A stretch of 64,000 nt of DNA from Ignavibacteria bacterium (GTDB taxonomy: Bacteria > Bacteroidota > Ignavibacteria > Ignavibacteriales > Ignavibacteriaceae): the NCBI GenBank assembly GCA_017302895.1, contig JAFLBV010000004.1, positions 62,001 through 126,000 on the forward strand. Direction: 5' to 3'. Below, in pieces: positions 11,108 to 59,500 of this stretch. The notes beneath the pieces are model-generated. The model saw nothing but the letters and a program-made list of their open reading frames with translations. It was not told the origin of the DNA and searched no databases. Position 1 is the stretch's first letter, and every line of letters starts with the position of its first letter. Position numbers and translations under genes: made by a program.

Positions 11108-12205
11108 TCACCACATCCCTGTCCTCCTGTTAATAAGCCATTTACTGAACACCGGGTCATCCGTCTCATACTTGCCGTCAAGTTTGATGACCATTCCTCT
11201 TTCTTCAAGTTTTTTAAGGGCACTGAATGTTGTGCTCGTAGCCCCTGAATCGTACCGTTGACGGAAGGCATCAGACAGCGGTGGTAATTCTCCCTCAGCC
11301 AGGCCGATCATAATTTTCTGTTCGGTTTTTGTCATGGTACCCCAAAGTCTTTCATAGTCATTATCATGAATCCCGACCAGGTCATTCATGGCTGCTTGAA
11401 CAGGCGCCTTACTTTGCTTTCGTACTGAGAGTGCTTCCCACACACTGAACGCAAGGCACTGTGTATAGTAAGGATGTGATTTGGTGATCTTTAGGATCTC
11501 TTCGGCTATCGCGTGCGCGTCATCAGTGATATCTCTGAATCTTGAAGTTAAAAACTGCATAAACTCGTCGTCCGGGATTTTTCCGAGCGGCATCAGAAAA
11601 CCAAAATGATAAAAAGGGGATTTCTTTTTCTCAAAAATCTCTCTCATCAACGATTCCTTGCTGCCAAGAAAAACATAATTTACTTTTTTGTGGTGCTGAA
11701 TAATGGCTCTCAGCTTCTGCTCAAGCCAGGGTTCCAGCCTTTTAATTTCCTGAAACTCATCAATAATCACGATCAGTTTTTTATTCTCCGAACTGATATC
11801 CTCCAATAACCTCAGAACATCTTCAATTACAATTTCGGGCGTGCTTTGCGGATGGAATGTGATGTCGATATTGTTGGTCTGCACATTAAGAGTAATCGCC
11901 GGTGTTATCTTAAAATTTCTTAAAAATTGCTGAAATTTTTTGTAGGGATATAGTTTATGCACCTTTTTAAGCAATTGCGCCGCGAAATCGTTGGCTGAAG
12001 TAGTCAACTGCAGGTCCAGATATATTACCGGACGGTCCATTTTCAAGGCGACCTTCAGAATAAGACTGGTTTTACCAAATCTTCGCGGGCTTATAATTAT
12101 GAGGTGATTGCTGCTGCCCAGTACCGAATTGATACGGGCTATCTCCGGTTTTCTGTTTGTGAAATGTTCACCGTCAACCACACTGCCAAACTTGAAGGGG
12201 TTCAT
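11108..12205 (-). CDS. AAA ATPase, archaeal-type ATPase (STAND-like) family
   Basis: Walker A is ISPRRFGKTSL (about residues 38-48) and Walker B LIVIIDEFQEI (about 140), then a sensor-like VFLGSKESLM. The C-terminal third looks like a winged helix (TKTEQKIMIGLAEGE to LEERGMVIKLDGKYE). This matches the archaeal-type ATPase family (PF01637), many members of which are of unknown function and some linked to defence or regulation. No partner gene is adjacent. An 18-bp perfect palindrome lies 20 bases upstream of the ATG, a likely operator. Confidence 0.75.
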   Translation of the reverse strand: MNPFKFGSVVDGEHFTNRKPEIARINSVLGSSNHLIIISPRRFGKTSLILKVALKMDRPVIYLDLQLTTSANDFAAQLLKKVHKLYPYKKFQQFLRNFKITPAITLNVQTNNIDITFHPQSTPEIVIEDVLRLLEDISSENKKLIVIIDEFQEIKRLEPWLEQKLRAIIQHHKKVNYVFLGSKESLMREIFEKKKSPFYHFGFLMPLGKIPDDEFMQFLTSRFRDITDDAHAIAEEILKITKSHPYYTQCLAFSVWEALSVRKQSKAPVQAAMNDLVGIHDNDYERLWGTMTKTEQKIMIGLAEGELPPLSDAFRQRYDSGATSTTFSALKKLEERGMVIKLDGKYETDDPVFSKWLINRRTGMW

Positions 12206-12225
12206 CTAAACTCCGATAATTATCG

Positions 12226-12243
12226 TTGCGAAATATTTCGCAA
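12226..12243. promoter_or_regulatory. 18-bp perfect palindrome, candidate operator
   Basis: TTGCGAAATATTTCGCAA reads the same on both strands without mismatch. It ends 20 bases before the ATPase start codon at 12205, in the position expected for an operator over a promoter or leader. No matching regulator gene is next to it; autoregulation by the ATPase's own winged-helix end is possible but unproven. Confidence 0.55.
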
Positions 12244-12288
12244 TATACAAATTAATCACGAATCTGACACGGTATTCCTCATGAAATT

Positions 12289-12414
12289 TCAGGAAAAATC
12301 ATGCTCAAAAGAAGAAGACTCGATCTGTGAGAAGTAGTCGATTCCCGGCCTGTTCTGTGCTGTGACACAAAACGAAAAAAGAACAAAAAACAGAAAGAAC
12401 CTTGTCTGTTTCAT
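12289..12414 (-). CDS. Small secreted peptide, 41 residues, unknown function
   Basis: An ATG at 12414 is preceded by a purine-rich site (GGAG about 9 bases upstream) and opens a 41-codon frame. The first 19 residues, MKQTRFFLFFVLFSFCVTA, form a textbook signal peptide with cleavage before QN; only about 22 residues remain (QNRPGIDYF start, SSFEHDFS end). It starts 18 bases after the FG-GAP protein stop, so it is probably on the same transcript. It may be a genuine small exported peptide or the remnant of a longer secreted protein; an overlapping frame stays open to the ATPase gene, so a frameshift at the T5 run near its end is possible. Confidence 0.55.
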   Translation of the reverse strand: MKQTRFFLFFVLFSFCVTAQNRPGIDYFSQIESSSFEHDFS

Positions 12415-12432
12415 TTTACTTTTCTCCGATCT

Positions 12433-14001
12433 TTACTTTATATAGGCCACCTTTACGGTTGCAGCCATTTGACCGTTCTCCTTCTGAGAAGAAACCCTTA
12501 TCATGTATGTCCCGCTTGAAACATTCAGCAGGTTGAAATCAATCACCTCACTATGTTCACCTTTTGTTCTAAAGGTTGTATTTGAATAAATTTCCCTGCC
12601 CATTATGTCATAAATCGTCAGGTCAATCATGCCTTCGCCGGGGACTGTGTAGTTAACCTTTGTGCTCCCGTTAAAAGGGTTTGGGCTGGTTCTTATCTTT
12701 ATTTCAGGCGGAAGTTCTGCTCCAGTCTCATCCTCTACACCCGTTGGTTTTCTGACACCTTTCATAATATAGACACGGTTGTTTATAAGAGGATAAATGA
12801 GGTTGTATTCCGCTTCCTCTCCGATACAGATATCATCTACTCCGTCACCTGTCACATCGCCTATCCTGCCTGAAAAATTGGGACTGTTATCAATACTAAA
12901 GGCATATTCATCCGCCTTTTCTGTGGGTATTGGATTACCTCCAAGGAACAACCGTGCCAGATAGTAAGATACATGAACTATAAGATCATTGTATCCGTCA
13001 TGATTTACATCTCCCGGGGATGTGATGTAAGTATATGCACTGTTTTGAAGATTCAATCCAGCATCGGTAGAAAGGTTTGGAGGTTTTGCACCAAAAGACA
13101 TCACTATTGTGTACCAGTAAGGGTAGGGGGTCCCATAATTAAGAGTTATAAGCTCTCCCTTACCATCATCATTCATGTCCGGTATTGCTATTATATGTGT
13201 TGTATCATATATCTTAAAAGTGTCCGAGAAAGCGAATGAGGGATTACCGTAATAGAATTTCCGGAAGGGACGATCCGGGATGTTCATTGGCTGGTACCTC
13301 ATCGAAATATCGGTGAGTCCATCACCATCAATATCAACGAACTCTTGAGTTGTTGCCAGGTAGCTTCCCACATAATAGTAAGGTATGTTAGAATCTGAAA
13401 GCATATGACAGGTGGGTATTGTATCTGAGCTACCTGTTTCAAAGAAAACGATACTGCCGGATTTAGATGGTTTCAAAGGATGATAAGCAACTAACTCCTC
13501 CCACCCATCACCATTAAAATCAATTGGCCAGTTCTGTCCCTTCAACCATAGCAAATTGTCAGCAGTATTTTGGAATGTAAAATAGAACACATGATCTGGA
13601 ATGGTATCAAACGAAGCTCCACCATAATACACCAGAAATTTGACAAAATCGGGTTGCGCATAGTGAACTGTAATTATATCTCTGAACCCATCCCTATTCC
13701 AATCACAAGCTGTAACTGCTCTCGAATGGAGAATAGGAATAGAGAATGCAGCATTTTGATTAATGGGATCTCCACCCCTGAAAAAATAAGCCCTTGCATC
13801 CAATAGGTTCGTTGTTTCACTTAATGTTATCACAAAATCATCGTACCCATCGGAATCCTGGTCACCCATATAAATTATTGACTCGTATAAGAAATACCCT
13901 TGCTTGCTGAAAACAATTGTATCGAATTGTGCCTCGACAGCAGAATTCAGCAATAGAATTAATCCGGGTAATAGAGTCAATGGCTTCATGTATTTACTCA
14001 T
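12433..14001 (-). CDS. FG-GAP/VCBS repeat protein with T9SS C-terminal sorting domain
   Basis: A signal peptide (about residues 1-25, ending AVEA) leads into repeats with calcium-binding aspartate loops such as DQDSDGYDDF, DWNRDGFRD, DFNGDGWEE, DIDGDGLTD, DMNDDGKGE, DVNHDGYND and DVTGDGVDD, which imply an integrin-alpha-like beta-propeller. The last 85 residues are a type A sorting domain (SPNPFNGST, DIMGRE, SGTYMIRV) that directs export through the type IX system and surface attachment. The role is probably surface adhesion or structure; no enzyme domain is visible. Confidence 0.85.
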   Translation of the reverse strand: MSKYMKPLTLLPGLILLLNSAVEAQFDTIVFSKQGYFLYESIIYMGDQDSDGYDDFVITLSETTNLLDARAYFFRGGDPINQNAAFSIPILHSRAVTACDWNRDGFRDIITVHYAQPDFVKFLVYYGGASFDTIPDHVFYFTFQNTADNLLWLKGQNWPIDFNGDGWEELVAYHPLKPSKSGSIVFFETGSSDTIPTCHMLSDSNIPYYYVGSYLATTQEFVDIDGDGLTDISMRYQPMNIPDRPFRKFYYGNPSFAFSDTFKIYDTTHIIAIPDMNDDGKGELITLNYGTPYPYWYTIVMSFGAKPPNLSTDAGLNLQNSAYTYITSPGDVNHDGYNDLIVHVSYYLARLFLGGNPIPTEKADEYAFSIDNSPNFSGRIGDVTGDGVDDICIGEEAEYNLIYPLINNRVYIMKGVRKPTGVEDETGAELPPEIKIRTSPNPFNGSTKVNYTVPGEGMIDLTIYDIMGREIYSNTTFRTKGEHSEVIDFNLLNVSSGTYMIRVSSQKENGQMAATVKVAYIK

Positions 14002-53383: not shown

Positions 53384-53866
53384 ATGACTGATAACAGGAC
53401 GCTCGTCGTGGCAGGTATCTTTGCCCAATTGATCGTCCTTTCTCTCTTTATACCGGCAACAAATCAAATGCTTTCAAAAGCTGATCTTCCCGTTACGCTT
53501 CTAAATAATACAGGGAAACTGGTGATTGAAGACCCTGCTTTCGAAAAGACAACCACCGTTCTTGCAGTTAATAGTACCCATGTTCACGAGAGAGAGGAAG
53601 TTGAAATTGTTTGCGACTTTTTCAAACCGGGAGACCACATTTCCCTTACTCTTCTTTCAGGAGATAAAATCACAACAAAAGACTTTGTTTTGGTGCCGTT
53701 CTACTCTCTGTTCCATGTTGTTGTACAGGTAATTATTGCACTCGTCTTTATACTTATCGGCAATTTTGTGGTGATTAAAAAACCGGGTAACCTGCACGCA
53801 CAACTCTTCTTTTTGTGCTGCTTCGGAGTAGCGGCAATCGTGATTACAACCTGGGGGTCTGTATAG
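53384..53866 (+). CDS. Membrane histidine kinase, N-terminal fragment before an in-frame TAG
   Basis: 160 residues: membrane helix (about 8-26), a periplasmic domain (about 27-105) and two more helices (about 106-129 and 139-157), then TAG at 53864-53866. The frame continues open through the stop into the kinase at 53882 in exactly the same phase, and the membrane-domain pattern continues across it. So this is very probably the front end of one 801-residue kinase split by an amber codon, not a separate gene. The start ATG has no strong Shine-Dalgarno. Confidence 0.7.
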   Translation: MTDNRTLVVAGIFAQLIVLSLFIPATNQMLSKADLPVTLLNNTGKLVIEDPAFEKTTTVLAVNSTHVHEREEVEIVCDFFKPGDHISLTLLSGDKITTKDFVLVPFYSLFHVVVQVIIALVFILIGNFVVIKKPGNLHAQLFFLCCFGVAAIVITTWGSV

Positions 53867-53881
53867 GTTGACATTCCCCTT

Positions 53882-55789
53882 TTGGCTGATTTAACAAGAG
53901 CAATTTTCCACCTCTCTTATGTTGTCACTCCGGTATTTTTTATTCATTTCGCACTGGTCTATCCGGTAAACAGAACGAAGGACCCGGGATATGTCCTTTT
54001 TCTGCTCTATTTCTTCGCTTTTGCGGTTTCTTTTGGCAACTTTTTCTCTTATCTTTCAGTTAAAACTTCCCTGACCCAGGAAAGCCTTTCCGACTATATC
54101 GACTGGTTTAACATCAGTAGAATTGCGACCGTGGTACTGGTGATTGCCTCAACATCGATTTTTATAAATTCCTACAGGAAATCGACTACTCGGGAAGATA
54201 AACAGCGGCTTCTCTGGCTGATTACAGGATATTTTATCGGACCATTTGCATTTGTATTGCTTTGGGTAATCCCTCAGGGGTTAACAGGGCGTGGAATTAT
54301 CCCCGAGTCCGTGGTTTCAGTACTGATGCTCTCAATTCCTGTCTGTTTTACTATCTCAATCGTTAAATACCATTTCCTTGATATCCAGTTTATTTTAAAT
54401 CGAAGCATTGTTTATACCACGGTTGTTTCAATTCTTACGGCAATCTATTTTGCCTCACTCTTTCTGGCTTCCACCTATATCACCAGGGATTTTGAACTCG
54501 AATTTGCGACGATCACAACCCTTGTACTGGCATTCTTCTTCCAGCCGCTTAAGACCAGAGTACAAGTGGTGGTGGATAAAAATTTTTTTATGGTGCGTTA
54601 TAACTTCAAAGAAATGGTGGTACAATTCCGCAATCTGCTGGAATCCGCAATCACTGTCAAGGAAATCGGAATTTGCCTCGGGGATTTTATCCTGAAAAAT
54701 ATCCCTTATAAATTTTTTGCGATTTCGTTGCTTCAGGAAAACTCATCCCCTCGCTTGCTCTACCAAAATCGCGAGTTTACATTCATATTTCCCGAAAATG
54801 TGAGACTCGAAGAAAAAATCTACGCCCGTAGAGATGCTTTGGAACAGGGCATTAATTTTGAAGATATGAGTCCACTGCCGTTTAGTGATGAAGTAAAAGT
54901 GATCATTAATGAAAATGCGCACACCGCAAACTTCCATGCTGTCGTATTGCTCGGGGAGAAAAAATCGGAATTCAAGACTTCGAGGGACGATATCGATTTT
55001 ATCGAGACACTTGCAAAATCAGCTATCGATGCCATCGAGGCTGCATCGCTAAAGGAATCTTTGATCAGGAAAGAACTTGAAGCAGAGAAACTCGTCGAGC
55101 TGAATGCACAGAAGTCGCTCTTTGTCTCTTCCGTCTCCCATGATCTGAAGACACCCCTCACTTCCATCAATCTCCTTGCTCAACAGATGAAAAGGAAGAA
55201 AAACATTCCGGAAGATAAGGTGAACCATTATCTCGATGTAATTACCGGTGAAACTGAACGGCTCACAAGACTGATTGACAATGTACTCCATTTTTCACAG
55301 ATGGAAAGAGGTGTGAGGCAATATGTCATGGCGCCCCTGGTGCTAAATGATACGCTGCAGAACTCTCTCGATTTGATGGAGTACCAGATAAAAAGTGAAG
55401 GATTTAAGCTAAAAACCTCTATTCCGGAGAAAATTTTTCAAATAAACGGAAATCACGACGCCCTTGTTGAATGCATGATTAATCTCCTCTCCAATGCCCT
55501 CAAATTTGGGAAACCGGGCAATGTAATCGAAGTGTCGCTTATACAGGCAGGCGGTGATGCTTGCGTCACCGTAAGGGATCATGGAATCGGGATGCGGGAA
55601 GAGGAGATGAATGAAATTTTTAACCCCTTCTACAGAACAGCCACTTCAACTTTTAAAAAGATTCCCGGGACCGGGCTTGGTCTCTCGATCGTAAAACATA
55701 TAATTGACTCTCATAGAGGGAAAATTGAGGTCGAAAGCAAACCGGGTGAAGGAACAGCATTTAAGTTATATTTTAAGGAAATTTTATGA
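53882..55789 (+). CDS. Membrane histidine kinase, remainder after the in-frame TAG
   Basis: About five or six membrane helices, a poorly conserved GAF-like region, then HisKA (SVSHDLKTPLTS; His near residue 419 of this part) and HATPase (NLLSNALKFG, DHGIGM, GTGLGLSIV). The nominal TTG start at 53882 has no ribosome site and lies five codons after the TAG, in frame, so translation probably began at 53384 in the intact allele. It ends with an ATGA overlap to the response regulator gene, which still looks intact. Confidence 0.85.
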   Translation: MADLTRAIFHLSYVVTPVFFIHFALVYPVNRTKDPGYVLFLLYFFAFAVSFGNFFSYLSVKTSLTQESLSDYIDWFNISRIATVVLVIASTSIFINSYRKSTTREDKQRLLWLITGYFIGPFAFVLLWVIPQGLTGRGIIPESVVSVLMLSIPVCFTISIVKYHFLDIQFILNRSIVYTTVVSILTAIYFASLFLASTYITRDFELEFATITTLVLAFFFQPLKTRVQVVVDKNFFMVRYNFKEMVVQFRNLLESAITVKEIGICLGDFILKNIPYKFFAISLLQENSSPRLLYQNREFTFIFPENVRLEEKIYARRDALEQGINFEDMSPLPFSDEVKVIINENAHTANFHAVVLLGEKKSEFKTSRDDIDFIETLAKSAIDAIEAASLKESLIRKELEAEKLVELNAQKSLFVSSVSHDLKTPLTSINLLAQQMKRKKNIPEDKVNHYLDVITGETERLTRLIDNVLHFSQMERGVRQYVMAPLVLNDTLQNSLDLMEYQIKSEGFKLKTSIPEKIFQINGNHDALVECMINLLSNALKFGKPGNVIEVSLIQAGGDACVTVRDHGIGMREEEMNEIFNPFYRTATSTFKKIPGTGLGLSIVKHIIDSHRGKIEVESKPGEGTAFKLYFKEIL

Positions 55790-56466
55790 AAAAAATACTC
55801 TTGATTGAAGATGACCCGGCAATCAGCCTTAGCCTGACCGATATACTCGAATCTGAACATTATGAAATTTCCACCGCGAGGGACGGGAATGAAGGGTTAA
55901 AAACGGCTATCGATGGATATTTTGATTTGGTACTGCTCGATCAGATGCTCCCGACGATGAACGGTATTGATGTTTGCAGAGAACTCCGCGCAAAAAATTC
56001 TGATGCCCCCATTATAATGCTCACCAGTAAAAATGACGAGGTTACCAAAGTACTGGCATTCGAGATTGGAGCCGACGACTACATAACGAAACCTTTTAGC
56101 ATCAATGAACTTCTCGCAAGAATTAAAGCAGTTTTAAGAAGGACTGGAAACAAAATACCTCAGATTCAATCCAATCAATCAGGCGACTTGATATTGAACG
56201 ACAAAGAGATGACATTGAGCAAAAACGGTGAGGTTTTCCCTCTCTCTCCCATAGAGTATAAACTTATAAAATTCTTTTTCGAACATCCTAATGAGATTTT
56301 CTCCCGAAACAAACTGCTGGATGAAGTGTGGGGATACGACAGTTTCCCGACCACTCGTACAATAGACAATTTTATACTTTCCCTTAGGAAAAAGTTCGAG
56401 GATGACCCCTCAAACCCAAAACACTTTGTTACAATCCATTCTGCCGGCTATAAATTTGTCCCGTAA
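55786..56466 (+). CDS. Response regulator, OmpR/PhoB family
   Basis: 226 residues: receiver (1-118; IEDDP acid pair, phospho-Asp in LVLLDQMLP, KPFS Lys) and a C-terminal winged helix (about 130-226; LSPIEYKLIKFFFEHPNEIFSR and TRTIDNFILSLRKKFEDD). It would bind DNA when phosphorylated by the kinase encoded just upstream. Target genes are unknown. Confidence 0.95.
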   Translation: MKKILLIEDDPAISLSLTDILESEHYEISTARDGNEGLKTAIDGYFDLVLLDQMLPTMNGIDVCRELRAKNSDAPIIMLTSKNDEVTKVLAFEIGADDYITKPFSINELLARIKAVLRRTGNKIPQIQSNQSGDLILNDKEMTLSKNGEVFPLSPIEYKLIKFFFEHPNEIFSRNKLLDEVWGYDSFPTTRTIDNFILSLRKKFEDDPSNPKHFVTIHSAGYKFVP

Positions 56467-56482
56467 AACCTAATCGACCCCC

Positions 56483-56594
56483 ATTATTGCATTATTGGAT
56501 TACTGCATTACTGCATTAAAAAAAAGGGCTCCGAAAACCAAAGCCTCCGGAGCCAAATATTACTGCATTATTGGATTATTGCATTACTGCATTA
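56483..56594. repeat. Two octamer-repeat arrays flanking the nrdJ terminator
   Basis: Two 36-base direct copies, 56483-56518 and 56559-56594, differ at only two positions. Each is itself four and a half 8-base units of the form ATTA(T/C)TG(C/G). They lie on either side of the nrdJ terminator, and the nrdJ stop codon (56592-56594) is the last three bases of the second copy. Confidence 0.85.
56518..56554 (-). terminator. Intrinsic terminator of nrdJ
   Basis: GGCTCCG (56527-56533) pairs with CGGAGCC (56548-56554) in a 7-bp GC-rich stem; on the minus strand a TTTTTTTT run follows. It is 37 bases past the nrdJ stop, between the two octamer arrays. Confidence 0.88.
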
Positions 56595-59500
56595 ACTGCA
56601 TCCGCTTGTTGAACCACAGGTCATGCACTTCAGACAGGTACCGTTTCTTACCATTGTCATGCTGTTACATTCGGTGCAAATGTCACCGGTGTAGCCTTTT
56701 TCTATGGCTCTCTGAACCTGATGCTTAATCGCTGTCGACTGTTTGTTCAGAAATTTTGAAGTAGTGTCCTTCGTTTCTGAAGTTGCAAGTTTTGAACTGT
56801 AGCCGGGAGAATCCCTTGGTTCGAGTTCATAAATGCTCTCGCTGACAAGTTCCTCGCTCTCAAAATCCTCGTTGGCCTTGCTTACTTTCGTGGATGAAAG
56901 GAGGTCATCCGCACTGACATGTGCAAGATCATATCTGTTCAGATAAGTGACTGCCAGTTCACGGAAGATGTAATCGATCACGGAGGTTGAGAACTTGATT
57001 CTCTGGTTTCCGGTGACCACACCCGATGGTTCGAATCTTGTGAAAACAAAAGCATCCACAAACTCTTCGAGAGGCACACCATGTTGCAAACCGAGTGAAA
57101 TAGCTATGGCAAAACTGTTCAGAAGGCTTCTTACAGTGGCTCCCTCACGGTGCATATCTATGAAAATCTCACCAATCTGTCCATTGTCATATTCACCCGT
57201 TCTGATATAGAGCGATTGCCCGTTAATCTTTGCTTTTTGGGTGTATCCTTTTCTGCGATCGGGAAGTCTTCTTCTTTTTGCGATGTAACGGTGAATGATT
57301 CTTTCAGCTACCTTTACAATGTTGTTTTCTTCGTGGGATTCGTAAATTTCCTGGAAGTCATCATCAATTAGTGAATTTAGCGGCTGCGAAAGTTTCGATC
57401 CGTCTCTGTAGAGAGCATTTGCCTTCAAACAGAGGTTCCACGATTGCATATAGGCATCTTTAACATCATCAACCGTCGAGTGGTAAGGCAGATTGATGGT
57501 TTTTGAAATGGCACCCGAAATGAACGGTTGAGCCGCAGCCATCATTTTGATGTGAGCCATGGCTTTCAGGAATCTCGTTCCCTTTTTACCGCATTTGTTT
57601 GCAGTGTCGAAAACAGGATAGTGTTCGAATTTCAGATAGGGAGCACCCTCAACCGTCATTGTACCGCAGATGTAATCGTTTGCGGATGAGATTTCCTGTC
57701 TTGAAAAACCAAGTTTCCGCAGAAGATTGAAATCCATCGAATCCATCTCTTCTTCCGTCACACCAAGTTTCTTCAGGAAATCGACTCCCAGGGTGTATTT
57801 GTTGAATGCAAAGGAAATGTCGAAAACCGAGGGCATCTGTTTCTCGATGATTGAGATGGTCTCATCGGTGAATCCTTTCGATTTCAGCGATTCTGCATTG
57901 ATGTAAGGACATCCTGTGAGGGATCCGGCACCAACAGCATATTTGATGATCTCATCTATCTGATGCTCGTTGTAGCCAAGTTTCTTGAGTGCCGGGGGTA
58001 CCGACTGGTTTATAATCTTAAAATATCCGCCACCGGCAAGTTTTTTGAATTTCACCAGCGCAAAATCAGGTTCAACTCCCGTGGTATCGCAATCCATTAG
58101 CATACCGATTGTACCGGTTGGAGCTATTACTGTCACCTGAGCATTTCTGAATCCGTGTTTTGTGCCGAGGTCGAGAGCACGATCAGCATCCTCTCTCGCA
58201 GCTTCAAGCAGGTCAGAGGGACATTTCGTGGGGTCGATTCCCATCGGCTTTATTGTCAATCCTTCATACTCCTCGACGGGTACATTGTAGGCGGCACGGC
58301 GATGATTTCTCATTACCCGGAGCATGTGATCCTTGTTTTTCTCATATTTTACAAATGGACCAAATCCCTTTGCCATTTCAGCACTGGTGGCATAGGCGCT
58401 GAAGTGCATAATTGCCGTCAAGGCTCCTGTAATGGCTACAGCTTCTTCACTGTCGTAAGGAATGCCCTGCTGCATCAGAAGAGCTCCGAGATTGGCGTAG
58501 CCGAGTCCCAGTGTTCTAAACTCGTAACTTAGCTGTGCGATTTCCTTGCTCGGAAATTGTGCCATCAGGACACTTGTTTCAAGCGTGATTGTCCACAAAC
58601 GGGCAGCGTGCCTGTATGCTTTAATATTAAATTTATTCGTTTCAGGATTGTAAAATCTCAAAAGATTCAACGATGCCAGGTTACATGCTGTATCGTCGAG
58701 GAACATATACTCACTGCAGGGATTGGAGGCATTAATCTCTCCATCCTCGGGACAGGTGTGCCATTCGTTTATTGTTGTGTGGAATTGCAGTCCGGGATCG
58801 GCACAGTTCCATGCGGCAAACGAAATGTCTTCCCAAAGCTCTCTCGCTTTAAGCACTTTTGACGGCTTCGGTTTCCTGTTTTCCTTTTTGGCTTTCTTCT
58901 TTTCAACTCTCCAGTAAAGGTTCCATGGTCCATCTTCGAGAACGGAATTCATAAATTCGTTGGTAACCCTGATGGAGTTGTTCGAATTCTGTCCGGAAAC
59001 GGTTGTGTAAGCCTCGGAATTCCAGTCGGTATCGTAAATAGGGAATTCTATCGATTTGTAACCGAGCTTTGCGAGTTGTATCACTCTCTCAATGTAATTA
59101 TTCGGAATAAGAGCCTTCTTTGCCTCTATTACAGCTCTCTGCAACTTTATGTTTAATTTCGGATTAAACCTGTCATTCTCAGGATGCTCTGCGTAGCAGG
59201 CTTTCATTATGTTGTTGAGGTGAAGGTTGTTCAACTTTGATCCGGTTACCAGTGAAGCAACTTTTTGCTCTTCGATAACCTTCCAGTTTACAAATTCTTC
59301 GATGTCAGGGTGATCGAGATCGAGACACACCATCTTGGCAGCTCTGCGTGTGGTACCGCCTGATTTTATCGCTCCTGCCGACCTGTCACCTATCTTCAGA
59401 AATGACATCAGACCTGAAGACCTGCCGCCTCCACTGAGCGGTTCTTCTGATCCGCGAATCTGACTAAAATTGGTTCCGGTTCCCGATCCGTATTTGAACA

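Follow-up and report, generated by a model that had tools for sequence, protein, structure and literature searches.

Does a single in-frame TAG in an otherwise open sensor kinase gene reflect a recent mutation, a wrong base in the assembly, a gene working in two pieces, or a stop codon that is read through? The question is raised by a locus in the window, a stretch of 64,000 nucleotides of an Ignavibacteria bacterium genome that was analysed here together with the rest of the genome and its relatives.

A membrane sensor kinase gene with one in-frame stop

Re-reading of the sequence bore out the layout given in the initial annotation, which had proposed a membrane histidine kinase gene interrupted by one stop. 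ATG 53384 opens the frame, TAG occupies codon 161, and the same phase continues through 640 sense codons, with no further stop, up to TGA 55787-55789 (Table 1). The unbroken product, put at 801 residues, corresponds to 801 codons with the TAG counted, and the overlap reported with the regulator gene is indeed intact, the end of the kinase gene and the start of the regulator gene sharing the bases ATGA.

Table 1. Features of the kinase locus, in positions of the window
Feature	Position	Strand	Remark
Kinase 5' piece, ending in the premature TAG: hydrophobic segment 1, an extracytoplasmic stretch of ~75 residues, then hydrophobic segments 2-3	53384..53866	+	No Pfam match on its own
In-frame TAG, codon 161	53864..53866	+	Sister genome: AAG (Lys); remaining 15 orthologues: other sense codons
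Kinase 3' piece: remaining membrane segments, linker, HisKA (H586), HATPase_c	53867..55789	+	Open; weak restart possible at TTG 53882
Response regulator (Response_reg + Trans_reg_C), partner of the kinase	55786..56466	+	ATGA overlap with the kinase gene

The read-through product matched HisKA (PF00512, E 1.3e-15) and HATPase_c (PF02518, E 2.5e-26), and both the phospho-acceptor H586 and the N- and G-box residues N700, N704, G764 and G766 are invariant, which identifies it as a HisKA-type sensor histidine kinase. An open frame of 640 codons that encodes both domains behind the TAG cannot be due to chance. HisKA_7TM (PF16927) fell short of its gathering cut-off in the read-through product (21.9 versus 28.6 bits); the sub-threshold N-terminal match covers residues 116-334 and spans the TAG. 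The same domain was matched in 3 of 17 orthologues (E up to 0.01), and a PDZ_2 match was found somewhere along the protein in 5 of the 17 aligned orthologues.

Downstream of the regulator gene, tandem octamer arrays (ATTACTGC/ATTATTGG-like) at 56482-56518 and 56559-56601 flank a terminator-like hairpin. The 18-mer TATTGGATTACTGCATTA has 74 matches in the genome at up to two mismatches, versus none for the reversed control, and is also present in the sister genome; it is a dispersed intergenic repeat.

The gene is unbroken in all full-length orthologues

In the sister genome, from the same genus (G003), the kinase gene forms one ORF of 807 codons, encodes a protein 89% identical and again has the 5'-nucleotidase-like gene and the regulator gene as its neighbours; it reads GCG AAG GTT, with a lysine codon, where the Ignavibacteria genome reads GTA TAG GTT. 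Alignment of orthologues at the stop, a check proposed in the initial annotation, returned a sense codon in each of the 16 full-length orthologues, that is, the sister and 15 others drawn from the same family and order. All 16 are single genes with no internal stop, none shares the TAG, and the residue at codon 161 varies freely among them (K, S, N, Q, R, T, D or I). Because every one of these orthologues is unbroken, the two halves are normally one gene, and the contrary possibility that they are ordinarily separate genes, which the initial annotation had named as fatal to its reading, is ruled out. The regulator gene is retained 3' of the kinase in most of the 15 further orthologues.

Among the matches listed, about 17 of the 59 relatives have a full-length kinase orthologue, including one of three congeners, the other two being incomplete genomes; given this patchy distribution, the kinase gene looks dispensable. 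A search of genome_contigs returned distant kinases only.

Two regions of the comparison with the sister stand apart from the stop itself. At the 3' end of the kinase gene (55322-55790, the HATPase_c part), identity drops to 68-74%, versus ~85-92% in the surroundings, and synonymous sites are saturated; the segment looks like a patch of recombination or gene conversion in one of the two genomes. Elsewhere in the window, an AAA ATPase gene and a gene for an FG-GAP protein with a Por secretion tail (11108-14001) have no counterpart in the collinear sister stretch, a difference that would correspond to either an insertion in the Ignavibacteria genome or a loss in the sister.

Recent nonsense mutation versus a wrong base

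Relative to the sister copy of the kinase gene, dN/dS is 0.15 for codons 1-160 and 0.10 for codons 162-400. Amino-acid changes polarised by outgroups number 6 here versus 15 in the sister over codons 162-550, and 19 versus 16 over codons 551-801; with no excess of changes 3' of the TAG, a gene in decay is unsupported. The outgroups share 45 invariant residues; this copy retains 42, and at the three exceptions the sister has the same residue as this genome. The absence of accelerated change behind the TAG, together with the retention of conserved residues, indicates that the stop is recent. In-frame stops in bacterial genes have been described as common and mostly short-lived (Belinky et al. 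2021, PMC7918605).

As expected of a recent nonsense pseudogene, relatives have the corresponding gene whole: 16 of 16 orthologues are unbroken, and the syntenic sister copy carries AAG. The locus is thus probably a two-component (HK-RR operon) membrane kinase gene hit by one recent, ordinary nonsense mutation. If the sister's AAG is ancestral, a first-position substitution at a variable loop codon would have created the TAG. The ribosome would then terminate after 160 residues, inside the membrane region. All that remained would be an N-terminal stub of three helices that lacks the kinase, and kinase activity would be lost or strongly reduced. The regulator gene 3' of it is intact. A trickle of kinase without the outer sensor part might persist through restart at TTG 53882, which would yield a product missing membrane segments 1-3 along with the outer stretch, or through background read-through. 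The data show the stop, the unbroken orthologues and a normal decoding machinery; that the TAG base is real and that kinase function is lost we infer. In the assembled sequence a wrongly called base would appear identical to a mutation.

Such an assembly or base-calling error, with the gene intact in the cell, is the chief competitor of a nonsense mutation and has an appreciable, if clearly smaller, chance of being correct. A single substitution suffices, the rest of the kinase gene is intact, and ~3.6% of random substitutions within it would create a stop, so that about one such gene would be expected if 4 Mb of sequence held a few tens of base errors. Against this explanation stands the quality of the compared sequence. 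When ~206 kb of the contig containing the window was set against the collinear contig of the sister, ~188 kb in extent as compared, the kinase gene was the sole real gene interrupted here among 135 shared ORFs; all further interruptions flagged were upstream (5') ORF extensions or spurious ORFs in non-coding frames. No frameshift was found in the stretch compared with the sister, and an error-ridden assembly is unsupported over the ~188 kb. The cluster of differences between GTATAG and GCGAAG may seem unusual but is not, since the first 1938 bases of the kinase gene include 13 comparable four-base windows with at least three mismatches to the sister.

Restart behind the stop and decoding of TAG

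The claim that the downstream half lacks a ribosome site held only roughly: no strong site is present, but an in-frame TTG, the sole codon nearby at which translation could restart, lies at 53882, 15 nt 3' of the TAG, with just a weak AGG upstream, the next in-frame ATG after it being codon 315. Low-level re-initiation may occur at this TTG. In a split working gene, translation would terminate at the TAG and restart at TTG 53882, giving a separate N-terminal piece and a kinase whose remaining helices pair in the membrane or which functions without the outer sensor part. The TAG falls between membrane segments, in a variable loop, and both pieces are conserved, which is consistent with such an arrangement; recency of the stop accounts equally for the conservation, and none of the 16 full-length orthologues has the gene in two pieces. 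We regard the split gene as improbable. Slightly more doubtful still is a real, tolerated switch, in which the TAG would set the level or signal dependence of the kinase by permitting a little full-length product through read-through, or a sensor-less one from TTG 53882.

The genome itself decodes TAG conventionally. Release factor 1 (prfA) is intact, the tRNA search proposed at the outset recovered 44 tRNA genes (found by Rfam model, read by ARAGORN) with no UAG-reading anticodon among them, and TAG terminates 10 of the 41 ORFs longer than 600 nt within the window; together these rule out genome-wide recoding of TAG. Three RNA folds around or behind the stop were no better than shuffles (z +0.92, +0.43 and -0.41), and none of the further histidine kinase genes matched across the genome had an otherwise intact frame broken by TAG. 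The release factor, tRNA set, TAG usage and RNA folds all indicate that this genome reads TAG as a stop and that nothing marks the codon-161 TAG as special. At a separate locus (G000:C4:275790-276014, L103), part of a histidine-kinase ATPase domain persists with internal TAA stops, an older kinase relic.

Programmed or otherwise functional UAG read-through yielding full kinase at a regulated level, although the frame 3' of the TAG is open and conserved and many bacterial in-frame stops have been argued to be tolerated (Belinky et al. 2021, PMC7918605), is not supported and is the least probable reading of all, as the TAG occurs in no relative found, suppressor tRNA and stimulatory structure are absent from the sets searched, and both RF1 and ordinary termination at TAG are present. 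A functional read-through gene would likewise show low dN/dS, a value that by itself is no argument for read-through. The initial annotation had placed mutation or error above read-through, a ranking with which the orthologues, the sister genome, the tRNA set and release factor 1 all agree.

Significance and relation to known systems

A recent nonsense mutation in this kinase gene would be an ordinary event, and a single sensor gene that is broken (or misread) is of small importance in a genome with several dozen histidine kinases. The locus does counsel caution: a single in-frame stop should not be taken for recoding if the closest relative carries a sense codon there. Were read-through or restart true, it would offer a small natural case of a kinase tuned by a stop codon.

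In domain order and catalytic motifs, the protein resembles other membrane sensor kinases that have HisKA and HATPase_c domains and a multi-helix N-terminal region, and like them it is encoded in an operon with a Response_reg/Trans_reg_C regulator; unlike them, the Ignavibacteria copy is broken at codon 161. The break itself resembles the single-nonsense pseudogenes and polymorphic stops described by Belinky et al. 2021 (PMC7918605), with one in-frame stop in a gene otherwise conserved, and it fits the short life of such stops on an evolutionary scale; whereas their set was limited to stops found in at least two species, the codon-161 TAG is known from one genome.
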